Shown piece after piece: positions 25,392 to 56,839 of a stretch of 64,000 nucleotides of DNA; the first letter of the stretch is position 1, and every line of letters begins with the position of its first letter. Origin of the DNA: Verrucomicrobiia bacterium (GTDB taxonomy: Bacteria; Verrucomicrobiota; Verrucomicrobiia; JABWAM01). The stretch is from contig JAQUAF010000007.1 of assembly GCA_028687435.1 (NCBI GenBank), forward strand, positions 62,001 through 126,000, given 5' to 3'. Both the position numbers and the translations under genes were made by a program. The notes beneath the pieces are model-generated. The model searched no databases. It saw only the letters and a list, made by a program, of their open reading frames with translations, and had not been told where the DNA came from.

Positions 25392-26567
25392 ATGATTGCT
25401 TCGCTTGACATCAAACCCATTGATCCTGTTCACAAACAGATTGAGCGGGCGTTGCGGCAGCAGATTCAGACTGGGAAACTCGAGCCGCAGGAACGGCTGC
25501 CTTCCACCGCAAAACTGGCCAGTCAATGGGGGGTTACGAATACCGCAGTTCAAAAGGCCATGGAGCGTCTGGTTGCGGATGGATTGATTGTGAGGAGCCG
25601 GAAGAGGGGCACCTTTGTCAGGCCGGCCACCGATCAGGTGGTGATCGGAGTTTTATTTGGGACGAGTCTTGCCGACGAACGCTCTCATTTTGCCCGTGCC
25701 ATATTTGATGCCATCCGGCATGAGTCGGAGGAATCGACCGGGCAGCGTTACTGTTGCCGGTTTTACGACCGCTTTGCCGGTGTATCCCGAAAAACCAACA
25801 TTGAGGATTTGCTGGCGTATCAGCAGGTTGTCGTGGATCTGCAAAATTTTTCGTTCAAGGGAATCATTCAGATTCATGGCGGTTTTGGAGATTATGACGG
25901 GGCCAAACTGGAATTTGGCCTGCCAACCGTCCGGCTTGCGTCGCCCCACCCGGAAGCGCGGGCGGATGTGATTTTGGATTTTCGCCGTTTTTCGCGCGAA
26001 TCCATCGAACGCCTTGTCCGCGCGGGGATCCGGCGGATTGCCTATTTGCGGACCTTGGATACCGCCTTGAATACAGACCGGGATTTGGAGGGGATTCAGG
26101 ATGCGGTCAAAGCCCATCCGCAAACAAGAGTGAAGATCGTTTCCATGCCGCACGTGCAGAAAGCCGGGGAGGATTTTGAACAGTCGGTCTATCAATCTGC
26201 GTTGAAAACCATTGGCCAATGGCAGCGTGCCAACCAATGGCCGGAGGCGATTCTGATTTCCGATGACATTGCCGCCCGGAGTGTGGTGTTGGCGTTGATG
26301 CGGAAGGATGTTTCGATGCCGGAGGGGGTGCGATTGGTCACCCTGGCCAACGAGGGCATTCACCATCAGTACGGGCTTCCCGTTGAGCGCTATGAGTTTT
26401 CGCCGAGGGCGGCGGCCCGGGCCTTGTTGTCGGTTTTGTGGAAACGCATCAGGGGGGAGGACGAGGAAAATTTGCCGCTTTGTGTTTCGCGCGGATCAGT
26501 GGAAAATATTGTTGGCAAAGAGCAGGTTGGCAGCAAAGATTCGCTGGACGTTTTACTCCCTAATTGA
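25392..26567 (+). CDS. GntR-type HTH regulator with LacI/PBP-like sensor domain
   Basis: 'DPVHKQIERALRQQIQTGKLEPQERLPSTAKLASQWGVTNTAVQKAMERLVADGLIVRSRKRGTFV' GntR wHTH; LacI-like C-terminal domain. Confidence 0.9.
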   Translation: MIASLDIKPIDPVHKQIERALRQQIQTGKLEPQERLPSTAKLASQWGVTNTAVQKAMERLVADGLIVRSRKRGTFVRPATDQVVIGVLFGTSLADERSHFARAIFDAIRHESEESTGQRYCCRFYDRFAGVSRKTNIEDLLAYQQVVVDLQNFSFKGIIQIHGGFGDYDGAKLEFGLPTVRLASPHPEARADVILDFRRFSRESIERLVRAGIRRIAYLRTLDTALNTDRDLEGIQDAVKAHPQTRVKIVSMPHVQKAGEDFEQSVYQSALKTIGQWQRANQWPEAILISDDIAARSVVLALMRKDVSMPEGVRLVTLANEGIHHQYGLPVERYEFSPRAAARALLSVLWKRIRGEDEENLPLCVSRGSVENIVGKEQVGSKDSLDVLLPN

Positions 26568-27283
26568 GAATGAAAAACACCTTGATTCAGATTTTTACGT
26601 CTTGTGCGGCAAACGTTTTCCTGAGATTTCGGGCGGGGAAAATGAGCGCCCTTAATGTCCATTGGTCATTCCGGAGGGCCTTCACGCTCATTGAGCTTTT
26701 AGTCGTGGTCGCCATAACGGGCATATTGGCCGCGCTGTTGATGCCGGCCCTTTCCAGCGCAAAGGCCAGCGGAAGGCAGATCAGGTGCATGACCAATTTG
26801 AAACAGATCGGCTTGGGGGTGGCGCTTTACGGACAGGAAAATGACGACTGGATTGTGCCGTACAAAGGTGAAATCGGTGATCCGGCCAGTTATTGGAATT
26901 ACCTGTTGGAGAAACATCTTTCATATAGTCGGGAGGTTTTTCATTGTCCGTCCGCGCGCACGACTTGGCCGCCCCCCAACTGGTATTGGCAGGCGCATCT
27001 TTACATCAATTATGGCTACAATTTATATGGTCTTTCGAAAACCATCACCACCGGCACTGCCTGGAAAAAGTTCATGCAAGTGAACGATCCCGCAACGAGA
27101 ATTCTTGTCGCTGATCGGAATGAGGCCTCGCATGGAACCGGATACACCCCTCAAGTAATAAAAGCGCCCAGTGTTTACCAGATTGGCGCCCCGCATCATG
27201 GGGGCGCTGTGATCGTCTTTCTCGACGGCCATTGCTCCTGGACTCCATTCGGGGAGATCAAGGACGAATGGTGGGGATGGTAA
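26564..27283 (+). CDS. Prepilin-type protein with H-X9-DG domain
   Basis: 'RRAFTLIELLVVVAITGILAALLMPALSSAKASGRQIRCMTNLKQIGLGVALYG', 'HHGGAVIVFLDGH'. Confidence 0.9.
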   Translation: MRMKNTLIQIFTSCAANVFLRFRAGKMSALNVHWSFRRAFTLIELLVVVAITGILAALLMPALSSAKASGRQIRCMTNLKQIGLGVALYGQENDDWIVPYKGEIGDPASYWNYLLEKHLSYSREVFHCPSARTTWPPPNWYWQAHLYINYGYNLYGLSKTITTGTAWKKFMQVNDPATRILVADRNEASHGTGYTPQVIKAPSVYQIGAPHHGGAVIVFLDGHCSWTPFGEIKDEWWGW

Positions 27284-27294
27284 AAGGAGGAATT

Positions 27295-30030
27295 ATGCGA
27301 AGATTCGATTTGGCGTTTAAGAAATTCAAAGTTAATTGGAAAAGGCGGTGCGGGAGCCCCGCCCTCCATTTGTCGCGAAATGAATGGAGGGCGGGGCTCC
27401 CGCGCCGCCTTGCCGGTTTTCTGCGCCGAGCAGCCGCCGTGCCTTGGGCCTGGCTTAATTTACACCTATGTTTTTTGCTGGCTGTTTTTGGCGCGGCACA
27501 GGGAAGGGCGGTTTCCATTCAGGCGGTGAGTTATCCCGCCGAATACGAGTATGAGAGCAGGTTTTATCTTCTTGCCGGGGAGTTGAATCCGCTTTGTTTT
27601 TATTTTTGGGGCGACAAAAAGGCTGTTGCCAGGCCGGTTTTGGTGATCGATGCGCCGGAGGGAGTGAATATTGCGTATGCGTTTCATCCCGGCTACTGGA
27701 CCCATCCCGCGATTGAAACATTGGTCAGGAAATCTGCCGGGAGTGGGGGGGGAAACCGGTTTGAGATTCCGTTGAACGAGGAGCTTGTCAAAAAGGGTCT
27801 TCTGGCAAAACAGGGGCCATTCGATCCCGCCTATCTTGCGGTTCTTTTTGATACGGGCTCCAAATCATCCGGAGGAGGCGCATTGAAGTGGCATTTGGAG
27901 GATGCCACCGGCAATGGCGATGAAAAGACTGTTGAATGCGAGATTTTGCCGCCGATCGAGGCGCTGTCGCAGCCTTTTTTCAGCCATTATTTTTACCGGG
28001 CGCATTTGTTGAAGGCGCCGGATGCGGCGGTGAGGAAAAGACTTGGCTCGCTCTATCGCAAGGCTGGCGTGGAGGGATTTGTGGACAATGGACGCAGTTT
28101 GACCCAGGACGCCATGGCTGAAAAAATGAAGGTCTATGCGGAAGCCAGCCTTGGCGGCTGGGGCGGCGCCTGGTGGGGGGTGAAGACCGAGAAGGCCTGC
28201 AAAGACAGGCAGTTGAAACCCGGGGATATTTTGATTGTGATGAAGGATGGCCGCCAGTCGAAGGCAAAAAATGCGATCTGCCAGAGCTGGCTGATCGATC
28301 AGGCTGAATATGTGATCGGCGAAATGCAAAAGGGCATTTTGAAGCCTTATTACTTTGAAAATCTGACAACAGGTTTTCTCAACGACTATGAATTGGATAT
28401 ATTCAGTGACATTGCATGGAAACAGAGTTGTTTTTGCGCCCGTTGCAAGGAGACGTTTGTCCGGCGATGCAAGATGAATATCCAGCCCCAAGGGCTTTCT
28501 CCCGGGGATCTGCTGGGAAAATATCGCAAGGAATGGCTGGATTTTCGTTACTGGCAGAATGGAGAGATGATGCGTTTGTATGCCAGGGCGGTCCGCGGTC
28601 TGGATCCAAAGTTGAAAGTGGCGATTTGTTCGGTGGGGGTGCCGTTTGACCGGGAAAAAACCTATCATCCGATCGATCCCGCCGAATACGATGATTGCGT
28701 GGATGAACACTGGCCCATGTTTTACACGCAGTCGCCCAATTATTATCGCGAGATGGACCATGCGGTGAAACATTTGAAAAAGCCTGTCATTCCCTGCGTC
28801 AACACCTGTTTTCCGCTGGGAGAGCACAATGCCTGGCCCCCTGAATTGCTTTTTCTGAACATCATGGCCACCGCTTCAACGGGAGGCCGGGGCGCGTGTT
28901 ATTTTGTGGGGGATTCCAGCATGGACGCGCGTTATTACCATGCCATTGGCGATGCCAACAAACTGCTGAAGGTCGCGGGGAGATTTTATCAAAATGGACA
29001 GCGGTGCGACGAACAGGCTGTTGTCCGCCCTCTTTTGGTCAAGGAATTTGGCAAAGGAGAGTCGAAACGGGGTTTTCCGGATCTGAGAGAGTTTGTTTTT
29101 CATAATGTGCGCCGGCTTGACGGCGAATGGCTGATCACCCTTTTCAATTACAATGTGGAAAATGCCGCCTTTGTCGAGTTGTCGTTTCCCAAGCTTGCGG
29201 GAGGCGCTTATGAGATGGCCGACGCGGCCGGAGGGCGGGTGTTTGTAAAAACGGACGCTCAAGCATGGGATGGCGGCGATTTGAACAAGGGAGTTTTATA
29301 TAAGATTCCGCCGCGCGGGGTTTGTTGTCTGGTTGTGAAACCGGGCGGCGCAAAGGCGTCCGCTGGAACGGCGCAGGCCCGGGATACGGAGAATTCTTTC
29401 CGGGAGGAATTCTGCCGGCTGCAAAGGACGGAGACAAAGGACGATCCCCAGGGACTGATTGGATCCTGGTCTTTTGAAAAATCCGATGAAAAGATTGTTG
29501 TTCTCAAAGGGGCGAAGGAGGCGGATGGGCTTGCCGGGAAGGGATTGGCTTTCGATGGAAAGAAAGCGTATGCCGAATTGGTTGTGGAAGGTCTGGCGGA
29601 TCGTCTGCGGGACGCTTTCAGTCTCGAATTGTGGGTCTATCCCGAGTCGCTCAAACAGTGCATGTGTTTTATTGGAAAAAAGGGATCTCTTAGCATGGAC
29701 TGGTTCCAGCCCACGCAGGTGTTGCCCTGTGGCATTCGGCACCTCGGACAACGCCGGTGGATGGACGCAAAGCTTGTTCCGGCGGTGAACCGGTGGAACC
29801 ATTTGGTTTTCACCTATGGCGGCGGTTATTTAAGATTGCATCATGATGGCAACGAGGTGGACGCCTATTATGTGGGAAAACTGTCCATCGATCGTTCGGA
29901 CGCCCCGCTGACATTGTCGTCGGCAGGCGCTCCGTTTCACGGCCGCATCGATGAGGTTCGAATTTACGATCGCAGGCTGAAAGGAGAGGAAGTATGGCAA
30001 CATTACATCAAGTCAGCGCCGCAGTTCTGA
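27295..30030 (+). CDS. Secreted putative glycoside hydrolase with C-terminal LamG domain; N-terminus encoded by a repeat element
   Basis: SD AAAGGAGG then ATG at 27295; C-terminal 'LIGSWSFEKSD...FHGRIDEVRIYDRRLKGEEV' LamG. Confidence 0.68.
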   Translation: MRRFDLAFKKFKVNWKRRCGSPALHLSRNEWRAGLPRRLAGFLRRAAAVPWAWLNLHLCFLLAVFGAAQGRAVSIQAVSYPAEYEYESRFYLLAGELNPLCFYFWGDKKAVARPVLVIDAPEGVNIAYAFHPGYWTHPAIETLVRKSAGSGGGNRFEIPLNEELVKKGLLAKQGPFDPAYLAVLFDTGSKSSGGGALKWHLEDATGNGDEKTVECEILPPIEALSQPFFSHYFYRAHLLKAPDAAVRKRLGSLYRKAGVEGFVDNGRSLTQDAMAEKMKVYAEASLGGWGGAWWGVKTEKACKDRQLKPGDILIVMKDGRQSKAKNAICQSWLIDQAEYVIGEMQKGILKPYYFENLTTGFLNDYELDIFSDIAWKQSCFCARCKETFVRRCKMNIQPQGLSPGDLLGKYRKEWLDFRYWQNGEMMRLYARAVRGLDPKLKVAICSVGVPFDREKTYHPIDPAEYDDCVDEHWPMFYTQSPNYYREMDHAVKHLKKPVIPCVNTCFPLGEHNAWPPELLFLNIMATASTGGRGACYFVGDSSMDARYYHAIGDANKLLKVAGRFYQNGQRCDEQAVVRPLLVKEFGKGESKRGFPDLREFVFHNVRRLDGEWLITLFNYNVENAAFVELSFPKLAGGAYEMADAAGGRVFVKTDAQAWDGGDLNKGVLYKIPPRGVCCLVVKPGGAKASAGTAQARDTENSFREEFCRLQRTETKDDPQGLIGSWSFEKSDEKIVVLKGAKEADGLAGKGLAFDGKKAYAELVVEGLADRLRDAFSLELWVYPESLKQCMCFIGKKGSLSMDWFQPTQVLPCGIRHLGQRRWMDAKLVPAVNRWNHLVFTYGGGYLRLHHDGNEVDAYYVGKLSIDRSDAPLTLSSAGAPFHGRIDEVRIYDRRLKGEEVWQHYIKSAPQF
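27344..27409. repeat. REPIN-like palindrome copy A (in coding sequence)
   Basis: GGCGGTGCGGGAGCCCCGCCCTCCATT-TGTCGCGAAATG-AATGGAGGGCGGGGCTCCCGCGCCGCC. Confidence 0.92.
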
Positions 30031-32294
30031 TTTTTTTTGCGACAATCATTTTTCCGGCATGGACCCGTGCTGAAACGCGGGGATCCGGGGGGCTGATTGG
30101 CCATTGGCCATTGGACGAGGGGGAGGGGGAGGTGGCTCATGACCGTTCGGCGAATGTCAACCACGGAAAGATCAAGGCCGGTTATTGGCGCAAGGATGCA
30201 ACAGGCACAGCATTGGAATTTGACGGGAACGACACTTACATTGTAATGCCCCACAAACCTTGCTTGAATATCCGCGATGAATTGACCATCGAGACATGTG
30301 TTTGTCCTGTTTCGGTCCAGGGCAAGATTAGCTTTTTCAACAAAGGCACGGGCAATTTTCCCTCGGGATACAATTTTCTGATTAATGATGGCAAACTGGG
30401 TTTTTTGGCAAGGACCGAGCGGGCAGGGGGAGCCAAAAGAGGGTTTAAACATTACGAATTATACACCGACACAGTGGTTGTGCCGGTTGACAAGTGGACC
30501 CATGTGGCAGTGACTTACAGCGCGGCCGCAAATGAGTCGGCATTGTACGTGAATGGACGTTTGATAAAAAAGGCGCCGGCGGCGGGAGGGATTCTGAACC
30601 TTGAGGAGTATCAAAATTTGCAATGCGCGGTCAGCGGCATGTCGCTTGTGCCGCATTACAATTATTATCATTTGGAGGGATTTCTGAGGGAATTGAGGGT
30701 TTATGACCGGGCCTTGTCTCCGGAAGAGGTGGCGGGGAGGCATGAGGAGAATTCCGGGATCTTGAAGCTGTCCCGATTTAAAACCCATGCGGAAGAGGTC
30801 GAGGCTTCCTTGACCGCGAGGGTTGACGGATGTGTTGTTGATGCGGGGGGGCAGGGATTGAACGCAAAGGTTTATTTGCAGGGGGCTGACGGGAAATATT
30901 ATGCGCCCAAGGATTCCTTTGCCTATGGAAACGAAGGGCATAAATTTTTTTACGCCTTTGGATCTTTTTCTGCCGCAGTTCCGCCTGGAGGCGCAACTCT
31001 TCTGGCCGGGCAAGGGTTTGAGTGGTTGCCCAAAAAGGTTGCGGTTCCGGCGGGCAAGGCGGAGAGGGTGGAAATCAAGCTGGAGCGGCTGGCGGACATG
31101 TCCGCCCTGGGATGGTATTGCGGCGAGGACGAGCTTCAGTATTGCGCTGCGCATGGCAAGGGCAGATCCCGGGACTATTTCCGGCGGCTGGCTGGCGGTC
31201 CCATGCCGGAGGGTTTTGTCAACGCCTGCCGGATTTGCCAGGCCGAGGGCTTGAACTGGGTCAATTTCACCAGCAATATTCGTTATTGGAGCAAGCAATG
31301 GGACGACAGGATGTATGGAGCGGTTGACACCGCGCGGTTTACCGCCCGGCATGGACGCGAATTGAGGGGCGAGTATGGAGGAGACATTATTTGCGTGAAT
31401 GTTCCGGACCAGAAGGCGGAGGGAAACAATCAGCTCGAACAGTTGCAAAAGTCTCTTGCCGAGGGGGGCGCCGCGAATCTTGCCGATGGCGGGCATGATA
31501 TCGCCAATCCGCGGGCTTACCTGACCGCGAGATTGTTTCCGATCTGGGTGATGTCAGGCCGGGTCAGGCTGTGGCATCATGCGTTTCTGCCTTTTGGTTC
31601 CCAAGGGATGTCGGACAGTTATCGACTGCTGAACATGGGATTCAAGGTTGCGCAGGCTGCGGGAACGGATCTTTACATGATTTTTTCCAAAGGGGAGATG
31701 AAACCGGGAAGTCCCCGGACCTATGTAAAACTGAAGAATCTGACATGGCCGGAAATCGCCGATGCCTATCGGAACCAGCGGTTGTTTGCCACCGAGGGGC
31801 CGTTGCTCATGTTTACCATCAATGGCAGGGATATGGGGGAAACCCTGGAGATCGGGAAAAACGGGCCTGAGCAGATCCAATGCAAACTGGAAGCCTGTTC
31901 AATTTACGGAATGGAAAAAGTGGAGATTGTTCAGAACGGGAAAGTGGTCAAAACCTTTTTTCCAAAGGATGGGCGGATCAAAGAGGAATTCTCATTGACT
32001 CCCGATGGCGCCTGTTGGATTGCCGCCCGAGCCTATGGAAAAAAAGGTGATTTTGCTGGCGTTCAGGCGCACAGTGCGCCAATTTACGTCCAGTATAAGG
32101 ATCAGGGCATCCAACCGGCGGCGGAGGACATCCGGTATTTTAAAAAGTGGATGGAAACTCTTCGCGCCGTCACGCCCGGATTTGAAAAGAATTTCAAGGG
32201 AAAAACCGATTGGATTTATTCCTTGATTGACGAGGGGGATGCGATTTTGAAATCCTTGGAGGGATCGCCACGGCGTTGGACGGCGAACCCCTGA
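29994..32294 (+). CDS. Secreted LamG + PHP-like protein, probable pseudoenzyme paralog
   Basis: LamG 'LIGHWPLDEGEGEVAHDRSANVNHGKIKAGYW'; paralogous to 19704..22025 and 37883..40177, but metal-binding-like motifs altered (GEDELQ, GGDIIC, no THP). Confidence 0.7.
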   Translation: MATLHQVSAAVLIFFATIIFPAWTRAETRGSGGLIGHWPLDEGEGEVAHDRSANVNHGKIKAGYWRKDATGTALEFDGNDTYIVMPHKPCLNIRDELTIETCVCPVSVQGKISFFNKGTGNFPSGYNFLINDGKLGFLARTERAGGAKRGFKHYELYTDTVVVPVDKWTHVAVTYSAAANESALYVNGRLIKKAPAAGGILNLEEYQNLQCAVSGMSLVPHYNYYHLEGFLRELRVYDRALSPEEVAGRHEENSGILKLSRFKTHAEEVEASLTARVDGCVVDAGGQGLNAKVYLQGADGKYYAPKDSFAYGNEGHKFFYAFGSFSAAVPPGGATLLAGQGFEWLPKKVAVPAGKAERVEIKLERLADMSALGWYCGEDELQYCAAHGKGRSRDYFRRLAGGPMPEGFVNACRICQAEGLNWVNFTSNIRYWSKQWDDRMYGAVDTARFTARHGRELRGEYGGDIICVNVPDQKAEGNNQLEQLQKSLAEGGAANLADGGHDIANPRAYLTARLFPIWVMSGRVRLWHHAFLPFGSQGMSDSYRLLNMGFKVAQAAGTDLYMIFSKGEMKPGSPRTYVKLKNLTWPEIADAYRNQRLFATEGPLLMFTINGRDMGETLEIGKNGPEQIQCKLEACSIYGMEKVEIVQNGKVVKTFFPKDGRIKEEFSLTPDGACWIAARAYGKKGDFAGVQAHSAPIYVQYKDQGIQPAAEDIRYFKKWMETLRAVTPGFEKNFKGKTDWIYSLIDEGDAILKSLEGSPRRWTANP

Positions 32295-55988: not shown

Positions 55989-56330
55989 TCAGGCGAGCAG
56001 TTGCTGTCGGGCTCGATGGATCCATGCTTCGTTTTTTGGGAATTGGTCGAAGTCCTTGAACTCGCGGAACAGGGGGGATCGGGGATCGGTTTGCAGGGTT
56101 TGGAGAAGGGCGTAGTCCTGAAGGGATTCGGCGAACACTTCCCATCGGATGGAGTCGATGGGGCGGCCGTTGGGGCCGGGGTAAACAACGGAGGTGTCGC
56201 CATAAGCCCAGCCGGGGAATCGTCCGCCGTCAGTGACGGTCAGCCGGCGTTTGCCCGGGTGGATGTCGCGGGGCGCTTTGAGGGTGATCCAAAAGACGGA
56301 GGTTAAAGGGGTCACGGTTAATTTTATGTT
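55989..56330 (-). pseudogene. Fragmentary DUF4091/GH-type protein (internally deleted)
   Basis: 'TSVFWITLKAPRDIHPGKRRLTVT' joined to 'YPGPNGRPIDSIRWEVFAESLQDYALLQTLQTDPRSPLFREFKDFDQFP': an N-region-like piece fused directly to the C-terminus, upstream edge abutting a repeat. Confidence 0.5.
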
Positions 56331-56356
56331 TAAGAAATTCAATGTTTGGCGAAAAA

Positions 56357-56461
56357 GGCGGTGCAGGAGCCCCGCCCTCCATTTGTCGCGAAATGAATGG
56401 AGGGCGGGCCGTCGCCTCGCTGTAGTGGCTTTGGCCACGCAAGCGGGGCTCCCGCACCGCC
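56357..56461. repeat. REPIN-like palindrome copy H, interrupted in its right arm
   Basis: GGCGGTGCAGGAGCCCCGCCCTCCATTTGTCGCGAAATGAATGGAGGGCGGG-[~36 nt]-GGGGCTCCCGCACCGCC. Confidence 0.88.
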
Positions 56462-56542
56462 TTGCCGGTTTTCTGCGTCGTGCGATTGTCTCGCCGAAGC
56501 GCTTGGGCGAAGGCGGATCAAGCCGCCGCGCTCCGGCCCGGC

Positions 56543-56839
56543 TTAATTTGAGCCGGTTTCGGAGCGGATTTGATCTTTTTTGGATTCCATTTCGTCGCGC
56601 AGGGATTGGATTTCGGTTTTGAATTGTTTTTCCAAGGAAGCGTTTGCCTCTTCGTCGCCTTTTTCACGTGCTGCCTGGATTTTTTCGCCGAACCACAGTT
56701 CTTTTTCAGCGATTTTTGCGCGATAAACCTTGTCGATTTCGGCGAGGCGCGCTTTTTGTTCGGAGGAAAGCTTGACCGGAGTTGCTTGGGGATTGGCTTT
56801 GTTGAGCCGTTCGATGGCCAGTTCGTAAGCGGATTTCAT
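56543..56839 (-). CDS. Small charged hypothetical protein
   Basis: 'MKSAYELAIERLNKANPQATPVKLSSEQKARLAEIDKVYRAKIAEKELWFGEKIQAAREKGDEEANASLEKQF', helical; adjacent to a ROK gene. Confidence 0.65.
   Translation of the reverse strand: MKSAYELAIERLNKANPQATPVKLSSEQKARLAEIDKVYRAKIAEKELWFGEKIQAAREKGDEEANASLEKQFKTEIQSLRDEMESKKDQIRSETGSN

Follow-up and report, generated by a model that had tools for sequence, protein, structure and literature searches.

REPINs of REP/RAYT systems are high-copy inverted doublets of REP sequences that form hairpins, are overwhelmingly extragenic and accompany a RAYT gene with copies of these REPs on both sides (Bertels and Rainey 2011, PMC3116915). The commonest REP tag in the literature is GTAG; degenerate variants (GYAG, GYRG, GTRG and GTMG) are reported in some families, and GTGG in O. 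terrae. REPs inside genes have been described in several species, with GTAG-type cases most numerous in Opitutus terrae (Verrucomicrobia); the segments that they encode comprise 20-82 residues and some are N-terminal (Di Nocera et al. 2013, PMC3733652). In Rickettsia, palindromic elements (RPEs) occur in frame within genes. Nearly half of the first-reported RPEs were located in genes (PMC10969869), RPE sequences end in CGTC, and expression in vivo is reported for Rickettsia conorii proteins that RPE-1 decorates at the N-terminus (PMC3733652). In bacterial autotransporters, long signal sequences can work (PMC2805444).

We analyzed a window of 64,000 nt from a draft genome of a Verrucomicrobiia bacterium (GCA_028687435.1, contig JAQUAF010000007.1, positions 62,001 to 126,000), in which a palindromic repeat lies in frame at the 5' end of a gene for a predicted exported protein, here called the host gene. 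The repeat resembles REPINs in its high-copy inverted doublets, its hairpins, its overwhelmingly extragenic placement and a RAYT gene flanked by the same sequences, but it carries GGAG instead of GTAG, its core sits within a longer mosaic unit (left flank, tail, second hairpin) and the copy considered here is intragenic. With the intragenic GTAG REPs it shares a doublet inside an open frame, in some cases N-terminal; unlike them, it parts the n-region of a signal peptide from the h-region with no downstream ATG, and the genome has very few intragenic copies. RPEs are likewise palindromic repeats in frame within genes, although their descriptions set them apart from the present family, which has GGAG rather than CGTC, has an associated RAYT and almost always avoids genes. 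The parallel with autotransporters is a long N-terminal extension ahead of a normal Sec hydrophobic core. Their extensions have a common domain organisation, whereas the extension of the host gene is a mobile repeat with no known role.

Intragenic REPs, those of Verrucomicrobia included, are already published, and the host-gene case is probably a new member of that kind. What is less usual is the position between the n- and h-regions and the absence of a fallback ATG. Judging from the sequence, we consider it probable that an existing gene received a REPIN in frame within its signal-peptide region, just past codon 3 (or 7), and that translation from the ATG at 27295 reads through it.

Host gene and its start region

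The features of the locus, in window coordinates, are:

26564-27283, plus strand: upstream gene, N_methyl, DUF1559-type prepilin-like; its start may be 26642
27285-27290, plus strand: Shine-Dalgarno sequence (SD) AGGAGG, 4 nt 5' of ATG 27295, read from the sequence
27295-27303, plus strand: start codon and putative original n-region codons M R R, based on the sequence and the empty-site reconstruction
27295-30030, plus strand: host gene, predicted exported glycoside-hydrolase-like protein of 911 aa with a C-terminal LamG_3 domain, based on Pfam, coding score, structure model and fold search
27304-27462, plus strand: whole REPIN-containing element (probable extent), 159 nt, 53 codons without a stop, delimited by the conserved family flank and tail; left end 27304 to 27316
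27342-27411, unstranded: REPIN palindrome of two inverted REPs, arms 27342-27370 and 27383-27411, loop 27371-27382, based on inverted repeat, fold and arm matches
27437-27453, unstranded: second, smaller hairpin in the element tail, family CCGGGCCTTGGGCCCGG with two changes in the host-gene copy, based on tail alignment
27463-27510, plus strand: putative original hydrophobic core and cleavage region (HLCFLLAVFGAAQG-RA), based on hydropathy and the empty-site reconstruction
27468-27470, plus strand: out-of-frame ATG, 5 nt past the element and followed by T6; a rival start if one T is extra
29994-32294, plus strand: downstream gene, whose first 37 nt are shared with the host gene

The upstream gene ends with a TAA at 27281-27283. 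Because ATG 27295 starts 11 nt after this stop and the downstream gene overlaps the host gene, the three genes form an apparent operon. From ATG 27295 the frame is open for 911 codons to 30030, the whole palindrome and tail included. The initial annotation had described a strong SD/ATG at this position opening a frame through the left flank, the palindrome and the tail; the arrangement is as claimed and the peptide that it quoted is exact. Its further statement that no in-frame ATG follows the element is confirmed, as the first Met past residue 1 lies in '..LTQDAM', ~270 codons on. AGGAGG at the proper spacing is found in 22 of 881 high-confidence ATG genes (2.5%). Across 190 palindrome-orientations of the repeat family, an upstream ATG is open through the palindrome in 112 and a strong SD accompanies two of those starts. 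Only ATG 27295 combines a strong SD with continuation into a long gene.

The host gene also has in-frame non-ATG candidate codons, TTG 27370, GTG 27439 and TTG 27475, and many N-terminal REPs may be start mis-annotations (Di Nocera et al., PMC3733652). The element could accordingly be transcribed while the functional protein is initiated without an ATG, either inside the element or past it (GTG 27439 or TTG 27475), the 27295 start being unused or minor. However, a properly spaced SD is found at none of these codons, TTG 27475 would shorten the hydrophobic core, and the frame from the strong SD/ATG at 27295 continues uninterrupted into the gene. We consider a non-ATG start very improbable.

Codon use of the host gene 3' of the element is coding-like. 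LamG_3 is found at the C-terminus of the protein (8.9e-20, Pfam). The 637 residues ahead of it were modelled from an alignment of five sequences only, with a mean pLDDT of 72, and a fold search with this model found a resemblance to barrel glycoside hydrolases, such as dextranase, GH123 and beta-galactosidases. The TM-scores are low, so we name the protein glycoside-hydrolase-like and nothing beyond that. In its nearest paralogue (32%, contig C43) the common domain lies mid-way in a larger protein, which is uninformative on the start.

Anatomy of the element

The two arms of the palindrome are 29 nt each and 97% complementary, with a 12-nt loop, and the region has a predicted fold of -105 kcal/mol (z = -6.4 vs shuffles). 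Complete copies of the family run from a left flank like TTTAATTTAATGTTTAGGAATTTCAATGTTTGG through the palindrome, TTGCCGGTTTTCTGCGTCGAGC, variable modules and often the CCGGGCCTTGGGCCCGG hairpin to the end, TTAATTTA. The host-gene copy has every one of these modules. Its tail is identical to the family tail at 50 of 53 positions, and its left flank matches the family from ~27304, where the first 12 positions are 7/12 identical, a score that 1.1% of random 12-mers attain. The element likely extends over 27304-27462 (159 nt), with 27316 as an alternative left end and thus a 12-nt uncertainty. A search for a target-site duplication at the element ends returned only chance-level 4-nt matches.

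As the length of the element is a multiple of three and no stop is in frame, ribosomes would be expected to read through. The main hairpin of the predicted fold begins ~45 nt 3' of the start codon, so initiation at 27295 should stay unmasked. Among 66 complete copies, 50 have the reading frame used in the host gene open (the other five frames are open in 16 to 42), and the open frame of the host-gene element is therefore weak evidence by itself. There is no support for the idea that selection has kept the element's frame open, since several frames often are. We also rejected codon usage as proof that the element is translated, because its score (-0.02) is neutral, neither coding-like nor clearly non-coding.

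Signal peptide and empty site

When the flanks are joined without the element, the protein begins with MRRHLCFLLAVFGAAQG-RAVSIQ (cut 27304/27462) or, at the alternative cut (27316/27459), with MRRFDLALHLCFLLAVFGAAQG-RAVSIQ. Based on hydropathy, both joined versions are normal-looking signal peptides with a hydrophobic core from residue 4. The traits of a Sec signal peptide (basic n-region, hydrophobic core and small cleavage-site residues) are present by hydropathy and composition, and are best without the element. When the element is present, this start moves to residue 54, which is near the 99th percentile for N-terminal hydrophobic segments genome-wide (median 10).

The initial annotation had read the locus as an RPE-like insertion in frame that created the long basic n-region of the signal peptide. 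In-frame insertion is the best-supported explanation, and the parallel with RPEs holds in the sense of 'works like', with the element itself classed as a REPIN of a REP/RAYT system (see below) rather than as an RPE. As to the n-region, removal of the element leaves an ordinary signal peptide at either cut, so the gene would already have had a basic n-region that the element extended. We favour the view that the element lengthened an existing signal peptide, parting MRR from the hydrophobic core, and created neither the peptide nor its basic n-region. The annotation had further suggested a comparison with orthologues lacking the element. No element-free orthologue was found among the 57 nearest relatives, 384 genomes of the class, a wider contig collection and plasmids, and the direction of change is thus inferred, not observed.

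The insertion is supported by the strong SD/ATG, the lack of a later ATG, the canonical empty site, the 911 intact codons and the REP/RAYT origin of the element. A RAYT transposase would have moved the non-autonomous REPIN into the gene between the n-region and the h-region. Ribosomes from ATG 27295 would traverse the element and would have to unwind the main hairpin. The resulting precursor would consist of MRR, ~53 element-coded residues and the original hydrophobic core, so that the core would be preceded by a long basic extension. The core would probably still engage the Sec machinery, and signal peptidase would cut off the extension near AQG/RA, which would leave the mature enzyme unchanged. 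We infer in this way the insertion as an event, the start at 27295, the retention of export and an unaffected mature protein.

Export may be impaired by the late h-region. In that direction, the REPIN could have inserted in frame and be translated yet harm export, as a recent harmful or neutral hit in a gene heading to decay. The near-identity of the palindrome with the family consensus may point to a recent insertion; the n-region is of unusual length, and another copy in the window adjoins a decayed GH123 gene. Against this, the 911-codon frame is intact and long signal sequences work in autotransporters (PMC2805444), and we give such damage only a faint chance. It is also rather improbable that the element-coded basic, Trp/Leu-rich stretch (RRLAGFLRRAAAVPWAWLNL) is in use as an extended n-region that alters export targeting or timing, a mobile REPIN having been recruited into a secretion signal.

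The in-frame insertion with export retained would be a clean example of a small mobile repeat entering a protein that is not broken by it. High tolerance is expected at the signal peptide, because its residues are removed after export. The locus would also offer a simple test case for the tolerance of Sec to a 50-residue repeat-coded extension.

A repeat family of the REP/RAYT type

The REP arm has 335 matches in the 5.97-Mb draft genome (up to one mismatch), with 0 for the reversed control, and 95 inverted REP pairs occur in 2.61 Mb. Outside this genome, the 384 genomes of the class contain only weak partial matches to the repeat. A RAYT gene is located on contig C73 (L012 1378-1884, minus strand). 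It matches the NCBIfam model NF047646, REP-associated tyrosine transposase, with 90.2 bits (cut-off 80), is above the Pfam Y1_Tnp cut-off and resembles the solved TnpA-REP structure (PDB 4er8, 4.1e-8). The family palindrome is present on both sides of the gene, and its product is likely the mobiliser of the repeat family. The high copy number, inverted doublets, extragenic placement and RAYT with flanking palindromes fit a REPIN of a REP/RAYT system.

The tetranucleotide 5' of the palindrome is GGAG in this family, not GTAG. We did not find GGAG among the tag variants in the literature that reports GTAG and its degenerate forms, and the repeat is therefore filed as REPIN-type with a variant tag rather than as a GTAG REP. 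With the host-gene copy, the known intragenic REPs would come to include a REPIN whose RAYT can be identified.

The RAYT frame on C73 opens at an ATG inside its own flanking palindrome (MEGGAPAPP...), and the repeat may contribute the start region of this transposase. A degenerate Y1_Tnp fragment with one internal stop lies near another REPIN (L011 ~1314-1740, contig C154) and is perhaps a decayed second RAYT.

Distribution of the repeat in the genome

Genes were called over 2.61 Mb (44% of the genome) using a simple codon model with repeats scored as neutral. This sample was partly chosen for known copies, so its copy density is not a genome average. Out of 192 copies in the sample, which is 87% coding, 173 lie outside called genes, 6 overlap a call partially and 13 are inside a call; most of these 13 were examined in detail and the rest were taken from the census listing. 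The census led us to reject the idea that the family generally inserts into genes in frame, with one convincing case in 192 copies. The other copies in frame with the 5' end of intact-looking genes all have an ATG 3' of the element, usually at a clear protein start, as in an aspartokinase-like protein (L081) and a lipoprotein (L104). Only the host-gene copy (27344) has both an intact gene and no ATG after the element.

These placements bear on the strongest rival to the insertion, in which the element is untranslated and lies just 5' of the gene. The true start would then be ATG 27468, with one extra T in the T6 run, either a sequencing error or a real frameshift; with one T fewer the gene would begin with MFLLAVFGAAQG. 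In its favour, an element stops 0-25 nt short of a gene's ATG in at least nine other loci, and every other N-terminal fusion to an intact-looking gene can be resolved by an ATG after the element. However, a start at 27468 requires a frameshift, makes the right-frame AGGAGG/ATG at 27295 a coincidence, lacks an SD ahead of it and yields a signal peptide whose core is preceded by no basic residue. For these reasons we rank it below the insertion and regard it as unlikely. If true, it would be a useful warning on start-site annotation near REPs.

Full-length elements often end within ~25 nt 5' of a gene's ATG, as seen among 39 tail copies (for example L146 12366, L074 15842 and L133 17874). Through such positions, many 5' leaders would contain an element, with a possible effect on translation. 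Another protein with predicted export (MLVWVFLLACAGGTGAGA; L205 266-1459, contig C86) has its ATG immediately after the terminal TTTA of a REPIN tail. It has two possible starts, since a further ATG 5' of the element also opens a frame through it. An open frame at L072 1336-1728 takes its C-terminal tail and stop from a REPIN (GGAGAPPSVYFDKPMEGGAPAPP...).

A sub-family of REPINs has an extra module (GGCCGTCGCC...GTGGCTTTGGCCACGC) in one arm and forms longer nested hairpins (L043, L044, L046, L047 and window 56355-56440). The chimeric REPIN at window 55992-56550 (minus strand), in which part of one arm is swapped for a second module, lies next to what is left of a GH123 gene, a C-terminal piece with no start. 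This remnant, beside the copy at 56357, covers only profile positions 285-324 of 324 and is not an intact gene.
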